Made by a program: the position numbers and the translations under genes. A stretch of DNA of 46,392 nt from an uncultured Spirochaetia bacterium (lineage in GTDB: Bacteria > Spirochaetota > Brachyspiria > Brachyspirales > Brachyspiraceae). Where the stretch lies: contig CAMRBQ010000011.1 of assembly GCA_947040495.1 (NCBI GenBank), positions 1-46,392 on the forward strand. Direction: 5' to 3'. Every line of letters begins with the position of its first letter. Within the stretch, counting starts at the first letter, position 1. Under the pieces are notes generated by a model, which searched no databases, had not been told where the DNA came from, and saw only the letters and a list, made by a program, of their open reading frames with translations. This document shows, piece after piece, positions 17,656-31,034 of the stretch.

Positions 17656-18204
17656 CTATTTTTTTGTCTTTTTAGACGAGGCTTCTGTCTTTTTTTCAGC
17701 TTCTTCAGGCTTATATTTTTTTGCCGATTTTTCTAAAGCTGTAGAAATCATATCTTCTATTTCTTCTTTATCTTTTTTTAAAGCGATGGAAAGCTCATCT
17801 ACAATAAATGTGTATGCTTTTTCATATAAACGTTTTTCACTTGCTGATAATTCTTTAACTCTATTTCTTATAAATAAATTCTTTGCAACCTCTAAAGTAT
17901 CTGAAATATCACCTGTTTTTAACCTATCTGTATTTTCCTGGCACCTTATTTTCCAATTGTTTTCCATATCCTGAGGCTTCTTTTGAATAGACTTTATTAA
18001 ATCTAAAGCACTATTCTTGGATATTATTTTCCTTACGCCTCTTGATTTTGCTGTACTTACAGGTTCTTTTACAATTATATTCTCTACAGTACATTCCAAC
18101 TCATAACATTCTACATCATCGTTTAATATCTTATAGCTTTTTATAGATAAAACCTTACATACTCCGTAAATTGGATGCACCAAAAATGAATTAATTTTAT
18201 GCAT
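17656..18204 (-). CDS. CarD-family transcriptional regulator
   Basis: A 182-residue protein with an N-terminal RNA polymerase interaction domain beginning INSFLVHPIYGVCKVLSI and including a strand EPVSTAKSRGVRKIIS. A helical DNA-binding part follows (NWKIRCQENTDRLKTGDI, AKNLFIRNRVKELSASEKRLYEKA). CarD proteins stabilise the open promoter complex and tune rRNA and housekeeping transcription. A charged tail rich in Lys, Glu and Ala (from about residue 160) is additional. It is transcribed from a promoter at 18257-18285 and is followed by the PIN/TRAM gene, a conserved pairing. Confidence 0.9.
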   Translation of the reverse strand: MHKINSFLVHPIYGVCKVLSIKSYKILNDDVECYELECTVENIIVKEPVSTAKSRGVRKIISKNSALDLIKSIQKKPQDMENNWKIRCQENTDRLKTGDISDTLEVAKNLFIRNRVKELSASEKRLYEKAYTFIVDELSIALKKDKEEIEDMISTALEKSAKKYKPEEAEKKTEASSKKTKK

Positions 18205-18428: not shown

Positions 18429-18901
18429 TTGAACGCTAATACTAAAAATCTAGAAAATCCAATAAATAACATTGGTAGTAGAATTAAATTATTTAGAAAA
18501 AAAAGAATATAACACTTAAAGAATTGTCAGAAAAAACTTCATTATCTATTGGCTACCTAAGCAATCTAGAAAGAAATGCTTGCAGCCTGACTCTTATAAA
18601 TATACAAAAAATATGCCAATTTTTGGATATATCCATAACAGATTTACTCGAAGACAATATTTATCCTCAAGTTATGATAAAAAAAAGTAATAGAAAAACA
18701 ATATTGCATGAAGAAAAAGTTAAATATGAATCAATCCATTATCAAGATTCTAAAATGGAAGCTTTATGTATCACAATGCAACCAAATTTTGAAAGTGATA
18801 AAAAATGGGCCCATAACTACGATGAAATGGGCATCGTTTCAAAAGGAACTATGGAAATAATAATAGATAATTTTAATATGGAGGTGAATAATGTTTTATA
18901 A
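18429..18901 (+). pseudogene. XRE-cupin regulator, frameshifted in a poly(A) run and truncated
   Basis: A TTG start at 18429 with AAGGA upstream opens a frame giving NIGSRIKLFRKK, the first helix of an XRE DNA-binding domain. It hits TAA after the run of eight A at 18496-18503. One more A would join it to the next frame, reading NITLKELSEKTSLSIGYLSNLERN, the rest of the helix-turn-helix. A partial cupin follows (WAHNYDEMGIVSKGTMEIII) but stops at 18901, about 60 residues short of a full XRE-cupin protein and inside the start of the next gene. Two lesions, an indel and a missing C-terminus, mark it as a remnant. Transcriptional slippage on the A8 run could restore the first part only. Confidence 0.82.
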
Positions 18902-19697
18902 TTCAAAAAATTGTAGTATTGAAATTGATAATACCACAATGGACTATGTTACATTTGGATATGGTGAAAAAAACTTAATTATTATTCCAGGCTTAGGAGA
19001 TGCTCTAAAATCTGTAAAAGGAATGGCATTCACACTTTCTTTCTTGTATAGAATTTTTGCAAAAGATTATAAAGTATATGTCTTTAGCAGAAAAAATAAA
19101 ATCCCCGAAACTTATCAAACTAAAAACATGGCAAAAGATATGGCGACTGTTTTATACAAACTCGGCATTACTAAAACTTATGTATTAGGAGTTTCACAAG
19201 GTGGCATGGTTTCCCAATATCTTGCAATAGATTATCCAGAAATAGTCGAAAAACTTGTGCTTGCTGTCACTTTATGCAGACCTAACAATACCTCTAAATC
19301 AGTTTTGACCAAGTGGATAAATTTAGCGAAAGCTGGTGACTTTAAGAACATTTTTATTGATACAGCCGAAAAAACATATACTGAGAAAAAGTTAAAATCA
19401 CTTAGATTTTTTTATCCTTTACTTAGTAAAATTTCCAAACCGAAAAGCCTTGATAGGTTTATCATACAAGCAAACTCTTGCTTAACTCACAATTGCTATG
19501 AAGAAATTTCTAACATAAAATGTCCAACATTTGTTGTAGGTGCTGATGATGATAAAATTGTTGGTAACTTTGCACCAACAGAGATTGCAAATAAAATAAC
19601 TGACAGCAGGCTTAAAATATATAACAGACTAGGACATGGTGCATTCGAAGAGGCAAAAGACTTTAATAATGAAGTTTTAAATTTTTTTAATTCTTAA
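18891..19697 (+). CDS. Alpha/beta hydrolase
   Basis: A 268-residue single-domain hydrolase with a complete triad by position. The nucleophile elbow is GVSQGG (Ser102), an acid sits in VVGADDDKIV (near Asp219-221), and His249 lies in LGHGAFEE. The oxyanion region is IIPGLGD. Specificity (ester, lactone or carbon-carbon bond) cannot be read. GGAGGTG lies 6 bases before the ATG, which itself overlaps the broken regulator by 11 bases. It is the only open gene in a run of damaged ones, so it may be active or simply not yet decayed. Confidence 0.85.
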   Translation: MFYNSKNCSIEIDNTTMDYVTFGYGEKNLIIIPGLGDALKSVKGMAFTLSFLYRIFAKDYKVYVFSRKNKIPETYQTKNMAKDMATVLYKLGITKTYVLGVSQGGMVSQYLAIDYPEIVEKLVLAVTLCRPNNTSKSVLTKWINLAKAGDFKNIFIDTAEKTYTEKKLKSLRFFYPLLSKISKPKSLDRFIIQANSCLTHNCYEEISNIKCPTFVVGADDDKIVGNFAPTEIANKITDSRLKIYNRLGHGAFEEAKDFNNEVLNFFNS

Positions 19698-19773
19698 CTA
19701 ATTATTAGAAACATTGCACGCAAGTACCCTATTCCCTACAACCAAGTAAAATAAAACTGAATACGCACAACGT

Positions 19774-19824
19774 AAGCACTTATCGACTTGAGATATTATC
19801 TCAAAAATCGCTAAGTGCTTTTTT
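19774..19824 (+). terminator. Terminator-like hairpin in the tnpW leader
   Basis: AAGCACTTA (19774-19782) pairs with TAAGTGCTT (19812-19820), and an inner stem TTGAGAT/ATCTCAA (19788-19794, 19798-19804) closes on three bases. A run of T follows. The hairpin sits just before the tnpW ribosome site AAGGAGG, as in Firmicutes mobile elements, so it may attenuate tnpW. Confidence 0.65.
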
Positions 19825-19846
19825 GCATTCTAAGGAGGATTATATA

Positions 19847-20026
19847 TTGGGAAATAAACAACTAGCACTTACTACCCCACCAACATTCACACAGAAAATC
19901 GGTAAGACCACCTATCAAGTATCTGTTCATTTCAGTGAAACCAGCAAAGAAACATTTGACGATAAAATCAAAAGGTTAATGCTCAACGATTTAGCCAATT
20001 TAGAAAAAAAGTCAACTTTTGATTAA
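19847..20026 (+). CDS. tnpW: TnpW-family transposon protein (mobile-element remnant)
   Basis: A 59-residue protein read from TTG at 19847, with AAGGAGG eight to fourteen bases upstream. It contains LALTTPPTFTQKIGKTTYQV and VHFSETSKETFDDKIKRLM, which I recognise as the TnpW protein carried by Firmicutes conjugative and mobilizable elements next to a large serine recombinase. No recombinase, relaxase or other element gene follows. The sequence passes directly into a truncated methyltransferase gene. An upstream ATG at 19823 is in frame but lies before the ribosome site. The function of TnpW is not established. It points to past transfer from Firmicutes and deletion of the rest. Confidence 0.8.
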   Translation: MGNKQLALTTPPTFTQKIGKTTYQVSVHFSETSKETFDDKIKRLMLNDLANLEKKSTFD

Positions 20027-20040
20027 AAAACTATTGACAA

Positions 20041-21198
20041 GTGGCAATAGGAGGAGATAAACCTATATTTTGTCCTGCATATGGTCCTGTATTTGTTTCA
20101 AAAAATGATAAAATGTCTGAATCAAACAAGAATGATCTTATAAATTTTACAAAACTTACCCAAACAAGTCAAGTTATAGATATGTTAAATCCATATGTTG
20201 TAACACCATTTGATATTGATGTTGGTAAATTACAACAATATCAACAGGCTGTATGTTTAAAATATGGCTCAAAACCTATGATGTGTATTACAAATGGCTA
20301 TGAAAAGAGTGATGAATCTATTAAAATGATAAAAAAAGTTTATGGAAGTGCAAATTATGAATGTGTTACCATAGGTTTAATAAGTGCATTATCACCTCTC
20401 TCTTATGATAAAACTATGATAGAAGCTATATTCGCCTTTGCCAAACATAATCAGGCTATAGTATTTGGATGCGGTGCTTTACCCGGTGCGACCTCGCCTG
20501 TATCAATAATTGGTACTATGGTTGTGGCAACATCTGAATTACTTGCTGGTATTGTATTATCACAATTAATAAAACCAGGTGTTCCTGTTGTATTTGGCAA
20601 TGTCGCTGCATCCACAGATTTACGATTTATAACCCCTGCTATAGGTACAGCTGGGGCCTGTAAAATAGCTGCTTTGTCTAAGTCTATGTGCGAGTTTTAT
20701 AATATACCATGTCGTGGTGGTGGCTCTTTAAGTGATGCCAAACAAACAGATTATCAGGCAGGTAGTGAGTCTAACATGGTTATGTTTTCTACCATTACCT
20801 CTAAGTTAGACTATATAATACATAGTTGTGGTATCCTTGATTCTTTTAATATAATAGGATATGAAAAATTTATGCTTGATGAACAAAACATAACTAATAT
20901 ACAATTTCTATTGAAAGAAACCAACATTGAAGATGATATTATAGGTTATGAAACTATAAAAAGTATAGCACATGGAGAACAGTACTTACAGGAAGAACAT
21001 ACATTAGAATATATGAGAGATGAGATTCATTGTACAAAAATATCTCTGAGGGGATATTATGACAGTTGGAAAAAAAGTGGGTCCCCAACGTTACTTGATC
21101 ATGTAAATGAGGCTATAGATACTAGATTGTCTGAATATAGTATCCCGAATAAAGATAAACAATCTGAAAATTATTTAGATAATTTTTTGGGTATTTAA
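20041..21198 (+). pseudogene. MttB-family corrinoid methyltransferase, 5' truncated
   Basis: A 385-residue open frame from GTG with an in-frame TGA directly upstream. It covers the last three quarters of a trimethylamine methyltransferase (MttB) superfamily protein: CPAYGPVFVS, GCGALPGATSPVSIIGT, NVAASTDLRFITPAIGTAGA, and CRGGGSLSDAKQTDYQAG. Full-length members have about 470-500 residues, so roughly 90-110 N-terminal residues are missing, replaced by the TnpW remnant. There is no internal TAG, so it belongs to the non-pyrrolysine branch, whose known members demethylate betaines such as glycine or proline betaine. Activity after loss of the N-terminus is doubtful. Confidence 0.78.
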
Positions 21199-21231
21199 TT
21201 TAAAATATTTTATTAAAAAAAGGATGTTGAA

Positions 21232-22416
21232 ATGAAAATTACAAATGTCACAGCTAAGGCTGTAAATATACCATTCAAAACACCATATGTTTGGTCTGTT
21301 GGTGGTTATTTAGGTGTTACAAGGGTCATAGTTCGTGTCGAAACAGATGATGGTATTATAGGTTATGGAGAGGCACCATAATGGGAATGCCAAGACGACA
21401 TTATGAAACATATGGCACAAAATCTTGTAGGCATTGACCCATTTGATATGGAGGCATGCGAAAGAGCATGTGTACCAGAAATGAAAGTGCTCGCAAATAC
21501 TGATGGAATATTACCTAGAATGTCATTTGGTGGTATCGAGCTTGCCTTATGGGATATACGTGGAAAGGCTTGGAATATGCCTCTATATAAATTACTTGGT
21601 GGAGCTTGTAGAAAGAGTGTTCCATTTTGTGAATATTTTGCAGACCTACTTCCAAAAGATAATTTTAAAGGTTTATCTGGCGTGGAAGACATTGTTAATT
21701 ATTGTCTTATGAGAAAAGAAAAACATGGCTCTACATATTTTGAAGGAAAAATTTCCTCTTCCGATGTAAAAAGAGATATAAAGCTTATCAAATTATTGAG
21801 GGAAAAACTTGGTGAAGAGGCTATCTTAAGAATAGATGGCAATATGGCTTGGTCACTACATTCTACTAGAGAGCTTTGTAGAGGGATAGAAAAATATAAT
21901 ATTAGACAATTTGAAGATCCTGTAGCAACATTTTGGGATATGAAAAAACTTAGAGAGCATACATCTATACCATTCTCAACACATAATCCAGATATTGCTT
22001 TGGCATTTAACCTTGGAGTTCCTGATACATTTGTTATAAATACTACAGCATTAGGTGGTATAAGAAAAACTGTTGGATTTATTAATGCATGTGAAAGACT
22101 TGGTATTGATATATCATTCTATAGTGGTGATACTGGTCTAGCAACTGCTGTCTATATACATTTAACTGCTTCTCTTCAGCATGTGCATGAGCCAAGTCAA
22201 TCACTATTTAGATTTATGGAATTTGACGTAATAGAAGAAGGCCCATTTGACCCTGTTAATAATATGGTTAACGTTCCAGAAAAGCCGGGCATTGGTGTAA
22301 CTATCGATGAAAAAAATGTAGAATATGCTCATAAACTTTTCAAAGAAAATGGCCCTATAAATCAATATTACAACCCTAAAGAGCCGGGCAAGTATATAAG
22401 GCTTCCATTAAATTAA
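21232..22416 (+). pseudogene. Enolase-superfamily protein (mandelate racemase-like) with in-frame TAA
   Basis: ATG at 21232 opens a frame reading MKITNVTAKAVNIPFKTPY to VETDDGIIGYGEAP, the capping domain of the mandelate racemase/muconate lactonizing group. Codon 50 is TAA (21379-21381). The same frame continues WECQDDIMKHMAQNLVGIDP and runs 345 codons through the barrel. It includes DGNMAW and FEDPV with acidic metal ligands, and FSTHNPD, YSGDTGLA. A single substitution (for example TCA to TAA) explains the break. Translation could restart at 21403 but without the capping domain start. Its place after an MttB gene recalls hydroxyproline-betaine epimerases, which is inference. Confidence 0.82.
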
Positions 22417-22442
22417 ACTAAATTAATTAAGGATAATAAATT

Positions 22443-22822
22443 ATGAGAGAAGTAATAAAGAGTTCTAATACACCAGAATCTGTTGGTAGCTATTCTCAGG
22501 CTGTCAAATGTGATAATTTACTATTTTTATCAGGGCAATTATGTGTAAACCCTAAAACTTCAAAAATTGAAAATGAAAGTGTTGCTTCTGAAACAAAGCA
22601 AATTATGGAAAATATAAAAGCTATTGTAATTGAAGCGGGTTCAACTATGGATGATGTTATTAAATGCAATGCCTTCCTTTCGGACATGAAACATTTGCAG
22701 AATTTGAAGCAGTATATAAATCGTATTTTAGCAGCCCATATCCTGCCCGTATTACAGTGGCAAGTGCTGGCATATACTCTAACTTAAATGTAGAGATGGA
22801 TGCTATTGTTAAAATAAAATAA
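22443..22822 (+). pseudogene. RidA-family protein, frameshifted
   Basis: The first 78 or so codons give a normal RidA (enamine/imine deaminase) sequence: SVGSYSQAVKCDNLLFLSGQ, ENIKAIVIEAGSTMDDVIKC and AFLSDMKH. At about 22691-22697 CATTTGCAG appears where CATTTTGCAG is expected. With one extra T the frame continues FAEFEAVYKSYFSSPYPARI and TVASAGIYSNLNVEMDAIVK and ends at TAA 22820-22822, a full family C-terminus including the conserved PARxxV arginine. As it stands, translation runs in the wrong frame to 22787 and loses that arginine. RidA clears reactive enamines and often accompanies amino-acid catabolic genes. Confidence 0.87.
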
Positions 22823-22907: not shown

Positions 22908-23405
22908 CTAATTCACGCTTTTTATATATTCTAAAACTTTTTCGTAATTTGGCTCGCCTGTAATTTCTTCAATATATTCTGTATATTTTACAATATTACC
23001 CGCATCCAAAACCAAAATAGCCCTAGTAAGCAGCCCGAGCTCTTCTATAAGAAGACCATACTTATTAGCAAAATCATGTTCTTTATAATCTGATATTACT
23101 GTCATCTCTTTGATACCTTCAGTAGAACAAAATTTTTGTTGTGCAAAAGGCAAATCCATAGACACTGTAATAATAACAACATCTTTTAACCCTGCAATAT
23201 ACTCATTAAACTTTCTTGTCTGTATTTGACAAACTGGTGTATCAAGTGATGGAACAACTGAAATCACTTTTAACTTTGCCTCTACATCATTAAGCGAAAA
23301 TGGAGAAAGATTTATTGTAGTTGCTCTAAAATTTGGTGCTTGCTCCCCTACTTGCAGTTGCTTTCCAACAAGATTCATTTTAGTACCATCAAATGTAATT
23401 TGCAT
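22908..23405 (-). CDS. tpx: Thiol peroxidase, atypical 2-Cys peroxiredoxin
   Basis: A 165-residue Tpx that reduces hydrogen peroxide and alkyl hydroperoxides using thioredoxin. The peroxidatic cysteine is Cys59 in SVVPSLDTPVCQIQTRKFNE, and the resolving cysteine is Cys93 in LPFAQQKFCSTEGI, the usual Tpx spacing. Residues such as TRKFNE and the C-terminal AILVLDAGNIVKYTEYI match the family. AGGAATG precedes the start. It stands alone between a terminator and the methyltransferase upstream region. Such enzymes protect anaerobic spirochaetes from transient oxygen. Confidence 0.94.
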   Translation of the reverse strand: MQITFDGTKMNLVGKQLQVGEQAPNFRATTINLSPFSLNDVEAKLKVISVVPSLDTPVCQIQTRKFNEYIAGLKDVVIITVSMDLPFAQQKFCSTEGIKEMTVISDYKEHDFANKYGLLIEELGLLTRAILVLDAGNIVKYTEYIEEITGEPNYEKVLEYIKSVN

Positions 23406-29745: not shown

Positions 29746-29840
29746 AACTACTGTGTAGGCTTACGTTGCACATTATAATGCATTAAATATATGCAACTAA
29801 AACGTATATAATACCGTGGTAGTAGCACAGTTACTGTGTA
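29746..29840. repeat. Dispersed palindromic repeat, copy 3
   Basis: Starts CTACTGTGTAGGCTTACGTT, continues GCACATTATAATGCATTAAA, and ends with GCAACTAAAACGTATATAAT, then a short dyad CACAGTTACTGTG (29826-29838). The left end is the reverse complement of the right end of copy 2b with two changes. It fills the flgL upstream gap and supplies the last codons of the methyltransferase-like pseudogene. Confidence 0.65.
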
Positions 29841-30816
29841 TTCTAAAATTTTCTATACTTGTATCTGGTGGTATCTCGCATCCTGCACTAGTTATAGTAC
29901 GACCATTTGTTATTTTATCGCAATAGGCAACACTGTTTTCTATTTGCTCTTTAGTTCCATCGCATATTATACCAACAGGGTCGCTATTACCAGAAAATAC
30001 CTGATTGCTTTTCAAGGTTTGGCTTGCCTCTTTCATATTTGTAACCATATGGTCTATATCTATTATATCCGCACTGCTTTCAATTAAAAATCCTAATATA
30101 TCACTTGTATTTCCACATATATGTGTTTTTACTAATGCGCCAAGAGAATGTGTATATGCAACCATTTCTTTATGATAGTCGAAACAAAAATCTTTGAAAA
30201 ACTCTGACCCTATCTGAGATGTTGCTGCATCGCCAATACCTATACAGTCTGCCCCAGCCTCAACTTGATATTTTATAATCCTTTTAGCATTTGCTAATAA
30301 TATATCAAATGCAAGACGTACTTTGTCTAGATTATCATATAAATCAAGACAGCTGTCTGAAAGCCCGTGTAAATCAGCATATTCTGCAAACATCCCTTCA
30401 ACCCAACCAACTATAAAATATTTATCACCAACAAGTTTTCTAAATAACTTTATTTCTTCTACTCTATTTTTCATTCTGGTACAATTAGATCAATCAGGCA
30501 CTTTAAGTTTATTAATATCTTCTATATCATTTATAAAATGCCCTATATTAATAGGCAAATCATTTTCAGTAAATTTTACTTTTAACCCAAAATCATGAGC
30601 CTCGACAAATGGGTCAGATAATACAGTTGTCCAATCACAGCCAAAAGCGTCAGCCATTTTAACCATAGCTTCTACTTTATATTGAGCCTGAGTACAAAAA
30701 ATTTTATAATTTATCTTAGCATAGTTTGAAGCAAATCTCATAAGTATTGGATGATATGGTGCTCTATCTATCTTAGAATTAGAGATAAAATCTATCGTCC
30801 TTTTATAACCGTTCAT
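29797..30816 (-). pseudogene. MtaA/UroD-family corrinoid methyltransferase with in-frame TGA
   Basis: Two open segments in one frame, 30816-30493 and 30474-29797, are split by TGA at 30490-30492 (context KVPD-stop-SNCTRMKNRVEE). Joined they give a uroporphyrinogen-decarboxylase-like protein of the methylcobamide methyltransferase type. HICGNTSDIL and SAGCEIPPDT carry the His-x-Cys and distal Cys of the zinc site that distinguishes MtaA/MtbA from true UroD. The C-terminus after ENFRIH is replaced by codons from a dispersed repeat (CATTTVLYTF). The ATG at 30816 has AGGG upstream and is preferred over an earlier TTG. Selenocysteine is unlikely, since no known Sec site fits. Confidence 0.8.
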
Positions 30817-31034
30817 TTTAAAATCCCTAATTAACCCCAATGCTACATATAGCTATATGAATATAATATCAATTGTCAAATATATTACAGAAATTATATT
30901 TAATTTATTATATAATTTACAAAAAAATAATAAAAAGATTTGATTTAGTACAATATTTGTTATATACTTTCAATAATTTTATTGTATCTAATATTAATTA
31001 TAATGTGTTTTTATATAACAAAACAGGAGACATC

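Follow-up and report, generated by a model that had tools for sequence, protein, structure and literature searches.

A pseudogene cluster at the end of a TnpW-type element in a spirochaete genome: remains of a probable quaternary-amine operon

The window analysed here is a 46,392-nucleotide stretch (contig CAMRBQ010000011.1) from an uncultured Spirochaetia bacterium of the Brachyspiraceae (assembly GCA_947040495.1), and corresponds to contig C11 of a 2.55-Mb draft genome that consists of 165 contigs and is 96.6% complete. Two NCBIfam matches, NF005187 above its cut-off and NF011309 below it, are in keeping with this family, and the host is probably a spirochaete of the gut. The plus strand carries, between carD and tpx, the genes for an XRE-cupin regulator, an alpha/beta hydrolase, TnpW, an MttB-superfamily methyltransferase, an enolase-superfamily enzyme and RidA, in this order. 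Leaving the hydrolase and tnpW out of the count, four adjacent genes carry five lesions, and homologous protein sequence resumes past the enolase stop and past both frameshifts. Such a clustering of lesions seems more than chance. The features of the locus are as follows.

18429-18880, plus strand: XRE-cupin regulator pseudogene, with a frameshift in the A8 run 18496-18503 and about 47 C-terminal residues missing
18860-18893, no strand: left junction, where regulator homology ends and the hydrolase segment starts, inferred from the alignment to the L022 regulator with a precision of about 30 bp
18891-19697, plus strand: intact, Clostridia-like alpha/beta hydrolase gene (PF00561, E 5.8e-21)
19774-19820, no strand: inverted repeat with 23-nucleotide arms, 78% complementary, leading into a T run; terminator-like by eye
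19850-20026, plus strand: tnpW, full PF14202 match (E 7.8e-18), frame intact, TTG start after AAGGAGG
20025-20045, plus strand: right end of a mobile element, AAAAAACTATTGACAAGTGGC, 21 bp, identical at a second TnpW remnant (contig C40, 16440-16460)
20046-21198, plus strand: mttB pseudogene, 5' part missing, the rest open (open reading frame, ORF, 20041-21198, 385 residues)
21232-22416, plus strand: enolase-superfamily pseudogene, with TAA at 21379-21381 (codon 50)
22443-22822, plus strand: ridA pseudogene, with a frameshift in 22688-22697

The initial annotation of this DNA listed five damaged genes, a regulator, mttB, an enolase-superfamily gene and ridA along with a TnpW remnant. The damage to these four genes and the remnant were recovered, but tnpW has an intact frame and is therefore counted not as damaged but as the mark of what is left of an element. 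The regulator frame that begins with TTG at 18429, LNANTKNLENPINNIGSRIKLFRKK, is interrupted at the A8 run; of its residues, just the final 11 can be aligned to the regulator of a Dethiosulfatibacter locus (L022; 7/11 identical), and the second frame corresponds to residues 40-153 of this 200-residue protein, with 48 of the 112 aligned residues identical. As the second frame ends at about residue 153, approximately 47 residues, making up the cupin C-terminus, are missing. The first 49 codons of the enolase-superfamily gene match those of the intact relative P0191 at 42 of 49 positions, and 337 open codons follow from 21403; P0190, a 337-residue protein identical to this post-stop part, is 80% identical to P0191, homology to which is thus found on both sides of the TAA. 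When aligned to the 126-residue RidA of L023, a locus in a metagenome-assembled genome labelled Desulfovibrio, ridA matches residues 1-84 in frame 1 and residues 73-125 in frame 2. PF01042 is matched by each of the two pieces, by the second with a score slightly below the cut-off (27.2 vs 27.3), and the first frame scores below the TIGR00004 threshold (98.7 bits vs 106.25).

The truncated MttB belongs to PF06253 (277.7 bits; cut-off 25). It covers the profile from positions 106-108 to position 491 of 500, positions 1-105 being missing, and is not a complete protein of about 465 residues. The missing part includes about 80 N-terminal residues that are present in all 25 relatives aligned. An N-terminal MttB query had no match anywhere in the draft genome; as a positive control, the same query found L022 (E 3e-19) and L023 (E 1e-26). 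The remaining 385 codons contain no amber codon.

Homology to mttB resumes exactly at the end of the 21-bp sequence (20045/20046). Allowing up to three mismatches, this sequence occurs twice in the draft genome and never in a backwards control. Both copies come after tnpW, and the two sequences part company directly behind GTGGC; the tnpW regions of the window and of C40 are 88% identical over 228 bases. The TnpW stop is 19 bp before the shared end, tnpW being the last gene near the right end. In some other records, too, tnpW is located near an element end. In the viral contigs L042 and L043, TTGACA begins 7 bases past the TnpW stop, and the next bases are common to both before the sequences diverge; a prophage tail gene (PF06605) lies directly after the shared bases in L043. 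L091, the record of an 8.5-kb circle, begins with the gene for a large serine recombinase (PF00239, PF07508) and closes with tnpW. The second TnpW remnant of the genome (L027; C40, 16440-17192) has lost its frame, has two tyrosine-recombinase pieces upstream and ends 12 bases behind another gene.

Three papers place TnpW in integrative mobilisable elements of the Tn4451/Tn4453 type (PMC5704250, PMC3158075, PMC6822371), and a published table lists Tn4453 as “Tnpx-tnpw” (PMC6822371). The window resembles this TnpX family in having tnpW just before the element end and TTGACA near the end, but differs in that only a right end is seen, and the C40 copy differs in its tyrosine-recombinase remnants. 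No ORF for a TnpX large serine recombinase or a relaxase is present in 18429-20045 (TnpX was not sought genome-wide), and we therefore call the segment a TnpW-type remnant without assigning it to the Tn4451/TnpX family. The segment DNA had no match in plasmids and phages, nor did the TnpW protein in phages; in plasmids, the protein matched 10 records. The sole match to the right-end motif in viral contigs, L041, is phage-like, has no TnpW among its ORFs and was taken as chance. A terminator scan did not report the inverted repeat that precedes tnpW.

The hydrolase frame is open, as initially annotated. All six organism-labelled relatives are Clostridia (56-64% identity), and other relatives are up to 86% identical (among the 120 matches listed). 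No match was found in any of the 28 same-family relatives searched, in viral contigs, or at L022 and L023. Given its Clostridia-like kin and the lack of a match in the 28 same-family relatives, the hydrolase was probably a passenger brought by the element. It had been counted among the members of the operon, a view that is not supported, as the gene lies inside the element-bounded segment and the hydrolase in the sole comparable operon that includes one (Paracoccus, L099) is only 20% identical.

The kinship of MttB points to an acquired locus. The best match is 61% identical, and named relatives are found in Anaeromicrobium (58%), Dethiosulfatibacter (56%), Clostridium sp. D5 (53%) and at L023 (52%). 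Among 392 same-phylum genomes, 22 (own included) contain an MttB match with an E value of at most 1e-20; the best one outside the own genome is 31% identical. In a 47-row tree, in which according to the tool some long branches may be misplaced, the window groups with P0022 (98/89) inside a 22-row clade (100/100) that holds Clostridium sp. D5; the five spirochaete rows used and two further rows group apart (100/99). Since the named MttB relatives at 53-58% identity are Clostridia and the best other same-phylum MttB is at 31%, the locus was probably acquired from Clostridia-like bacteria, and its reading as an old native operon is not supported. An alignment scan of the genome collection with MttB returned three loci, one of which (L024) matches query residues 220-383 only. 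In plasmids, 29 records were found, the 12 listed being 29-30% identical; these were not used. Third-position G+C is 18.5-22.7% in the locus genes vs 16.0-22.6% in the eight neighbouring genes measured, and overall G+C is 32-35% in mttB, the enolase-superfamily gene and ridA vs 29.2% in the window. The lack of a third-position contrast and the slight overall contrast suggest either that the acquisition is not very recent or that the donor was similar in composition.

The enolase-superfamily protein contains PF02746 and PF13378, the N-terminal capping domain and the C-terminal barrel that place it in the MR_MLE group. Among 28 same-family relatives, seven have a match, none above 31% identity except for a 32-residue stretch at 41%, and the genome-collection scan revealed no relative. 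The proteins P0191-P0199 are relatives at 70-80% identity. The intact relative P0191 has a confident predicted fold (predicted local distance difference test, pLDDT, 93), and resembles 4dye, 2oqh and 2pgw, the nearest solved structures, at 25-28% identity. At two positions of presumed functional importance, the alignment has His for the Asn of the “CTN” motif of 4dye and Tyr for the His of its “LHSG” motif, so that 4dye-type chemistry is not simply transferable. The name glucarate dehydratase, given to several relatives in one source, was rejected (TIGR03247, 40 bits vs a cut-off of 828.7, for the truncated form only). HpbD, a hydroxyproline-betaine 2-epimerase, is an enolase-superfamily enzyme of betaine catabolism. 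4-Hydroxyproline betaine may be no more than guessed at as a substrate of the window enzyme; the likeness to HpbD concerns superfamily and betaine role only.

Gene neighbourhoods elsewhere place the broken genes in a common context. At the Dethiosulfatibacter locus the order is regulator, BCCT transporter and MttB, with ridA on the opposite strand, 1.9 kb ahead of the regulator; at L023 it is amine oxidase, RidA, BCCT transporter and MttB. Genes of the enolase subgroup lie beside MttB in two of six plasmid neighbourhoods, those of Paracoccus sp. TOH, in which a hydrolase gene is located between the two, and Mesorhizobium 113-3-3. In both MttB plasmid clusters, the enolase gene is followed by one for a flavin adenine dinucleotide (FAD) oxidoreductase with kinship to sarcosine oxidase and GcvT. 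The subgroup is also found near an MtgC-like corrinoid protein on a Terrarubrum plasmid, and the other three neighbourhoods have neither MttB nor a corrinoid protein annotated within about 6 kb. Genes of the Ldh family are present in L098, L100 and L103, and RidA is listed by name in none of the six. These neighbours and those at L022 and L023 fit a stepwise N-demethylation of an amino-acid betaine. The Terrarubrum plasmid (L100, 5009-11407), in which the enolase gene is near genes for an Ldh-family reductase, an ornithine-cyclodeaminase-family protein and the MtgC-like protein, hints at cyclic imino-acid chemistry.

In characterised MttB-superfamily systems, a corrinoid protein accepts the methyl group taken from a quaternary amine, and in bacteria tetrahydrofolate is the next acceptor (PMC8604678). 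Like the Eubacterium limosum proteins MtpB, MtcB and MtyB, which function with MtqC, MtqA and RamQ (same source), the window protein is of the MttB superfamily with no amber codon in what remains of it, has Clostridia kin and is accompanied by a corrinoid protein elsewhere in the genome. In contrast, the window gene is a pseudogene that lacks its 5' part and sits beside an enolase-superfamily gene and ridA. The idea that a betaine or methylated amino-acid operon was lost here has three supports (the MttB superfamily, the presence of ridA near MttB at L022 and L023, and that of enolase relatives beside MttB in two of the six plasmid neighbourhoods, which supports a quaternary-amine pathway), and the hydrolase is dropped as a member.

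Compared with L022, the window lacks the sequence from about residue 153 of 200 of the regulator to about residue 81 of MttB, and has instead 1.16 kb holding the hydrolase gene and the tnpW end. We read this as an element insertion or rearrangement that removed the middle of a probable quaternary-amine operon, probably acquired from Clostridia-like bacteria, four genes of which are now broken, and put the probability of this reading at roughly two in three. A mobile element is the most likely first injury of the pseudogene cluster. A single element-mediated replacement would explain both the 3' truncation of the regulator and the 5' truncation of mttB, and may also have removed a transporter gene, which in Dethiosulfatibacter is located between the two; the hydrolase would have arrived with the element. 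The lesions of the enolase and RidA genes would have come later, once the methyltransferase had been lost. In the intact operon, the regulator would sense the substrate, and MttB would demethylate a quaternary amine and load the methyl group onto a corrinoid protein, from which a second methyltransferase would relay it onward. The part of the enolase-family enzyme would be to epimerise or isomerise the carbon skeleton of the amine, and that of RidA to hydrolyse an imine intermediate. The window would in that case show that a spirochaete probably gained and then lost an operon for betaine-type demethylation, and would still hold the end of the element that probably disabled it.

Several results weigh against this interpretation. 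The C40 copy of the element end is preceded by tyrosine- and not serine-recombinase remnants. TnpW is not always last, as L044 and L045 carry further mobile-element genes after tnpW, and TTGAC is 93 and 29 bases past the TnpW stop in L044 and L045, respectively (29 in L091), vs 7-8 bases. The left end of the element was not identified, and a single replacement event is thus something that we infer. On the operon side, neither L022 nor L023 has an enolase match, and no intact operon with the full gene set, or of the same gene order, a comparison proposed in the initial annotation, was found among the loci examined. The MtgC-like proteins score below the NCBIfam cut-offs (198 and 210 bits vs 370), and a fragment of a corrinoid activase gene in the genome, described below, means that part of the pathway may survive. 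The operon of Paracoccus sp. TOH (L099; MttB, alpha/beta hydrolase, enolase) is a case in which a hydrolase is part of an operon of this type. The 385-residue MttB ORF is absent from its own protein-search listing, unlike the hydrolase and the enolase.

The Paracoccus arrangement, in which the hydrolase gene sits between MttB and enolase, is also an argument for regarding the window hydrolase as a native operon gene, the element having hit only the start of mttB and the regulator C-terminus having been lost separately. The start of the hydrolase gene overlaps the regulator end, as coupled operon genes can. We consider this unlikely, as the Paracoccus hydrolase, besides its low identity, lies on the other side of MttB, the kin of the window protein reach 86% with all six labelled rows at 56-64% in Clostridia, L022 and L023 have no match, and the regulator breaks off exactly where the hydrolase gene starts. 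An operon ancestral to the spirochaete family, lost in the relatives and seen here at the last stage of loss, would agree with third-position G+C values within the range of the neighbours, which mark no compositional outsider, although overall G+C is slightly above that of the window. Yet the absence of the hydrolase from all 28 same-family relatives, the low identity of the seven enolase matches and the grouping of MttB with Clostridia-type rows, apart from spirochaete rows, make such an ancestry improbable.

The draft nature of the genome raises the question of whether assembly errors (homopolymer indels or a chimeric join) account for the junction or for part or all of the lesions; one of the frameshifts is located in an A8 run, and short runs adjoin the other. 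However, P0190 (post-stop enolase) and P0070 (hydrolase), which lie on both sides of the element end, are each found in four contigs. The longest contig is of 145,632 bases for both, and the two proteins hence probably share a contig in which they flank the element end; the broken enolase thus also occurs outside the 46-kb contig analysed here. In addition, homopolymer errors do not account for a 5' loss or for an in-frame stop with the reading frame kept, and the element end recurs at a second genome site. The broken forms are probably real, and we regard assembly error as a highly improbable explanation. The worry voiced in the initial annotation is reduced accordingly for enolase and hydrolase; the recurrence check covers these two proteins, and nothing comparable was seen for the regulator, mttB and ridA lesions. 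The recurrence of the 337-residue enolase, together with the long open frames of MttB and enolase after their lesions, could alternatively indicate genes that still function, through slippage at the A run, readthrough of the stop or a shortened enzyme that works. With MttB devoid of about 80 N-terminal residues found in every aligned relative, regulator and ridA each split, and several lesions in one neighbourhood, continued function is hardly to be expected.

Each component of the locus is of a known kind, and the link between MttB and the enolase subgroup, for which no function is given beyond automatic names, is the most useful lead. We tentatively suggest, as an idea that is possible but somewhat doubtful, that MttB, the enolase subgroup and RidA would make up a quaternary-amine pathway not yet described, with an enolase-fold epimerase acting before or after a cobalamin-dependent step that demethylates a proline-type betaine. 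The locus in the spirochaete would be a fossil of its transfer out of Clostridia, and a TnpW element would have inactivated it. Searches of one literature collection that combined enolase superfamily, MttB and betaine, or MttB, quaternary amine and RidA, in these wordings, yielded no paper joining the terms.

Outside the cluster, three further genes of the window are of interest.

17656-18204, minus strand: carD, open; the name is that of the initial annotation and has no NCBIfam match
22908-23405, minus strand: tpx, open
29797-30822, minus strand: MtaA/CmuA (URO-D) family methyltransferase pseudogene, with an in-frame TGA at 30490-30492

The initial annotation held the decay to be local. The flanking carD and tpx are indeed open, but the interrupted URO-D family gene, 7 kb from the locus, shows that loss is not confined to the 4.4 kb; it is a candidate for a role in the same pathway. 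It is the only one of seven URO-D family members of the genome to have an internal stop. The stop is located where conservation is low in one alignment, to 4ay7, and an alignment to the longest ORFs of the six other family loci was too gapped near the stop to use. The flanking gene tpx is present in 29/29 same-family genomes (own included). Eight stretches from six relatives with tpx were inspected for an empty site; tpx does not adjoin any of the 10 further genes from the window that were looked for there, so no empty site was readable.

Components related to the pathway are also encoded on other contigs of the genome. An MtgC-like corrinoid protein gene (C57, 336-965) is open, and a C-terminal fragment of a corrinoid activase (RACo) gene lies at a contig edge (L093; contig C83, 3-374). 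Nothing was found in favour of joining the contigs that carry the corrinoid protein gene and the RACo fragment. The BCCT family has two matches in the genome, one of which neighbours the gene for a betaine reductase selenoprotein B of the GrdH type (L072; contig C157, 138-3012). A TGA between profile positions 346 and 357 interrupts the latter gene, which suggests selenocysteine use and a separate, reductive betaine route.

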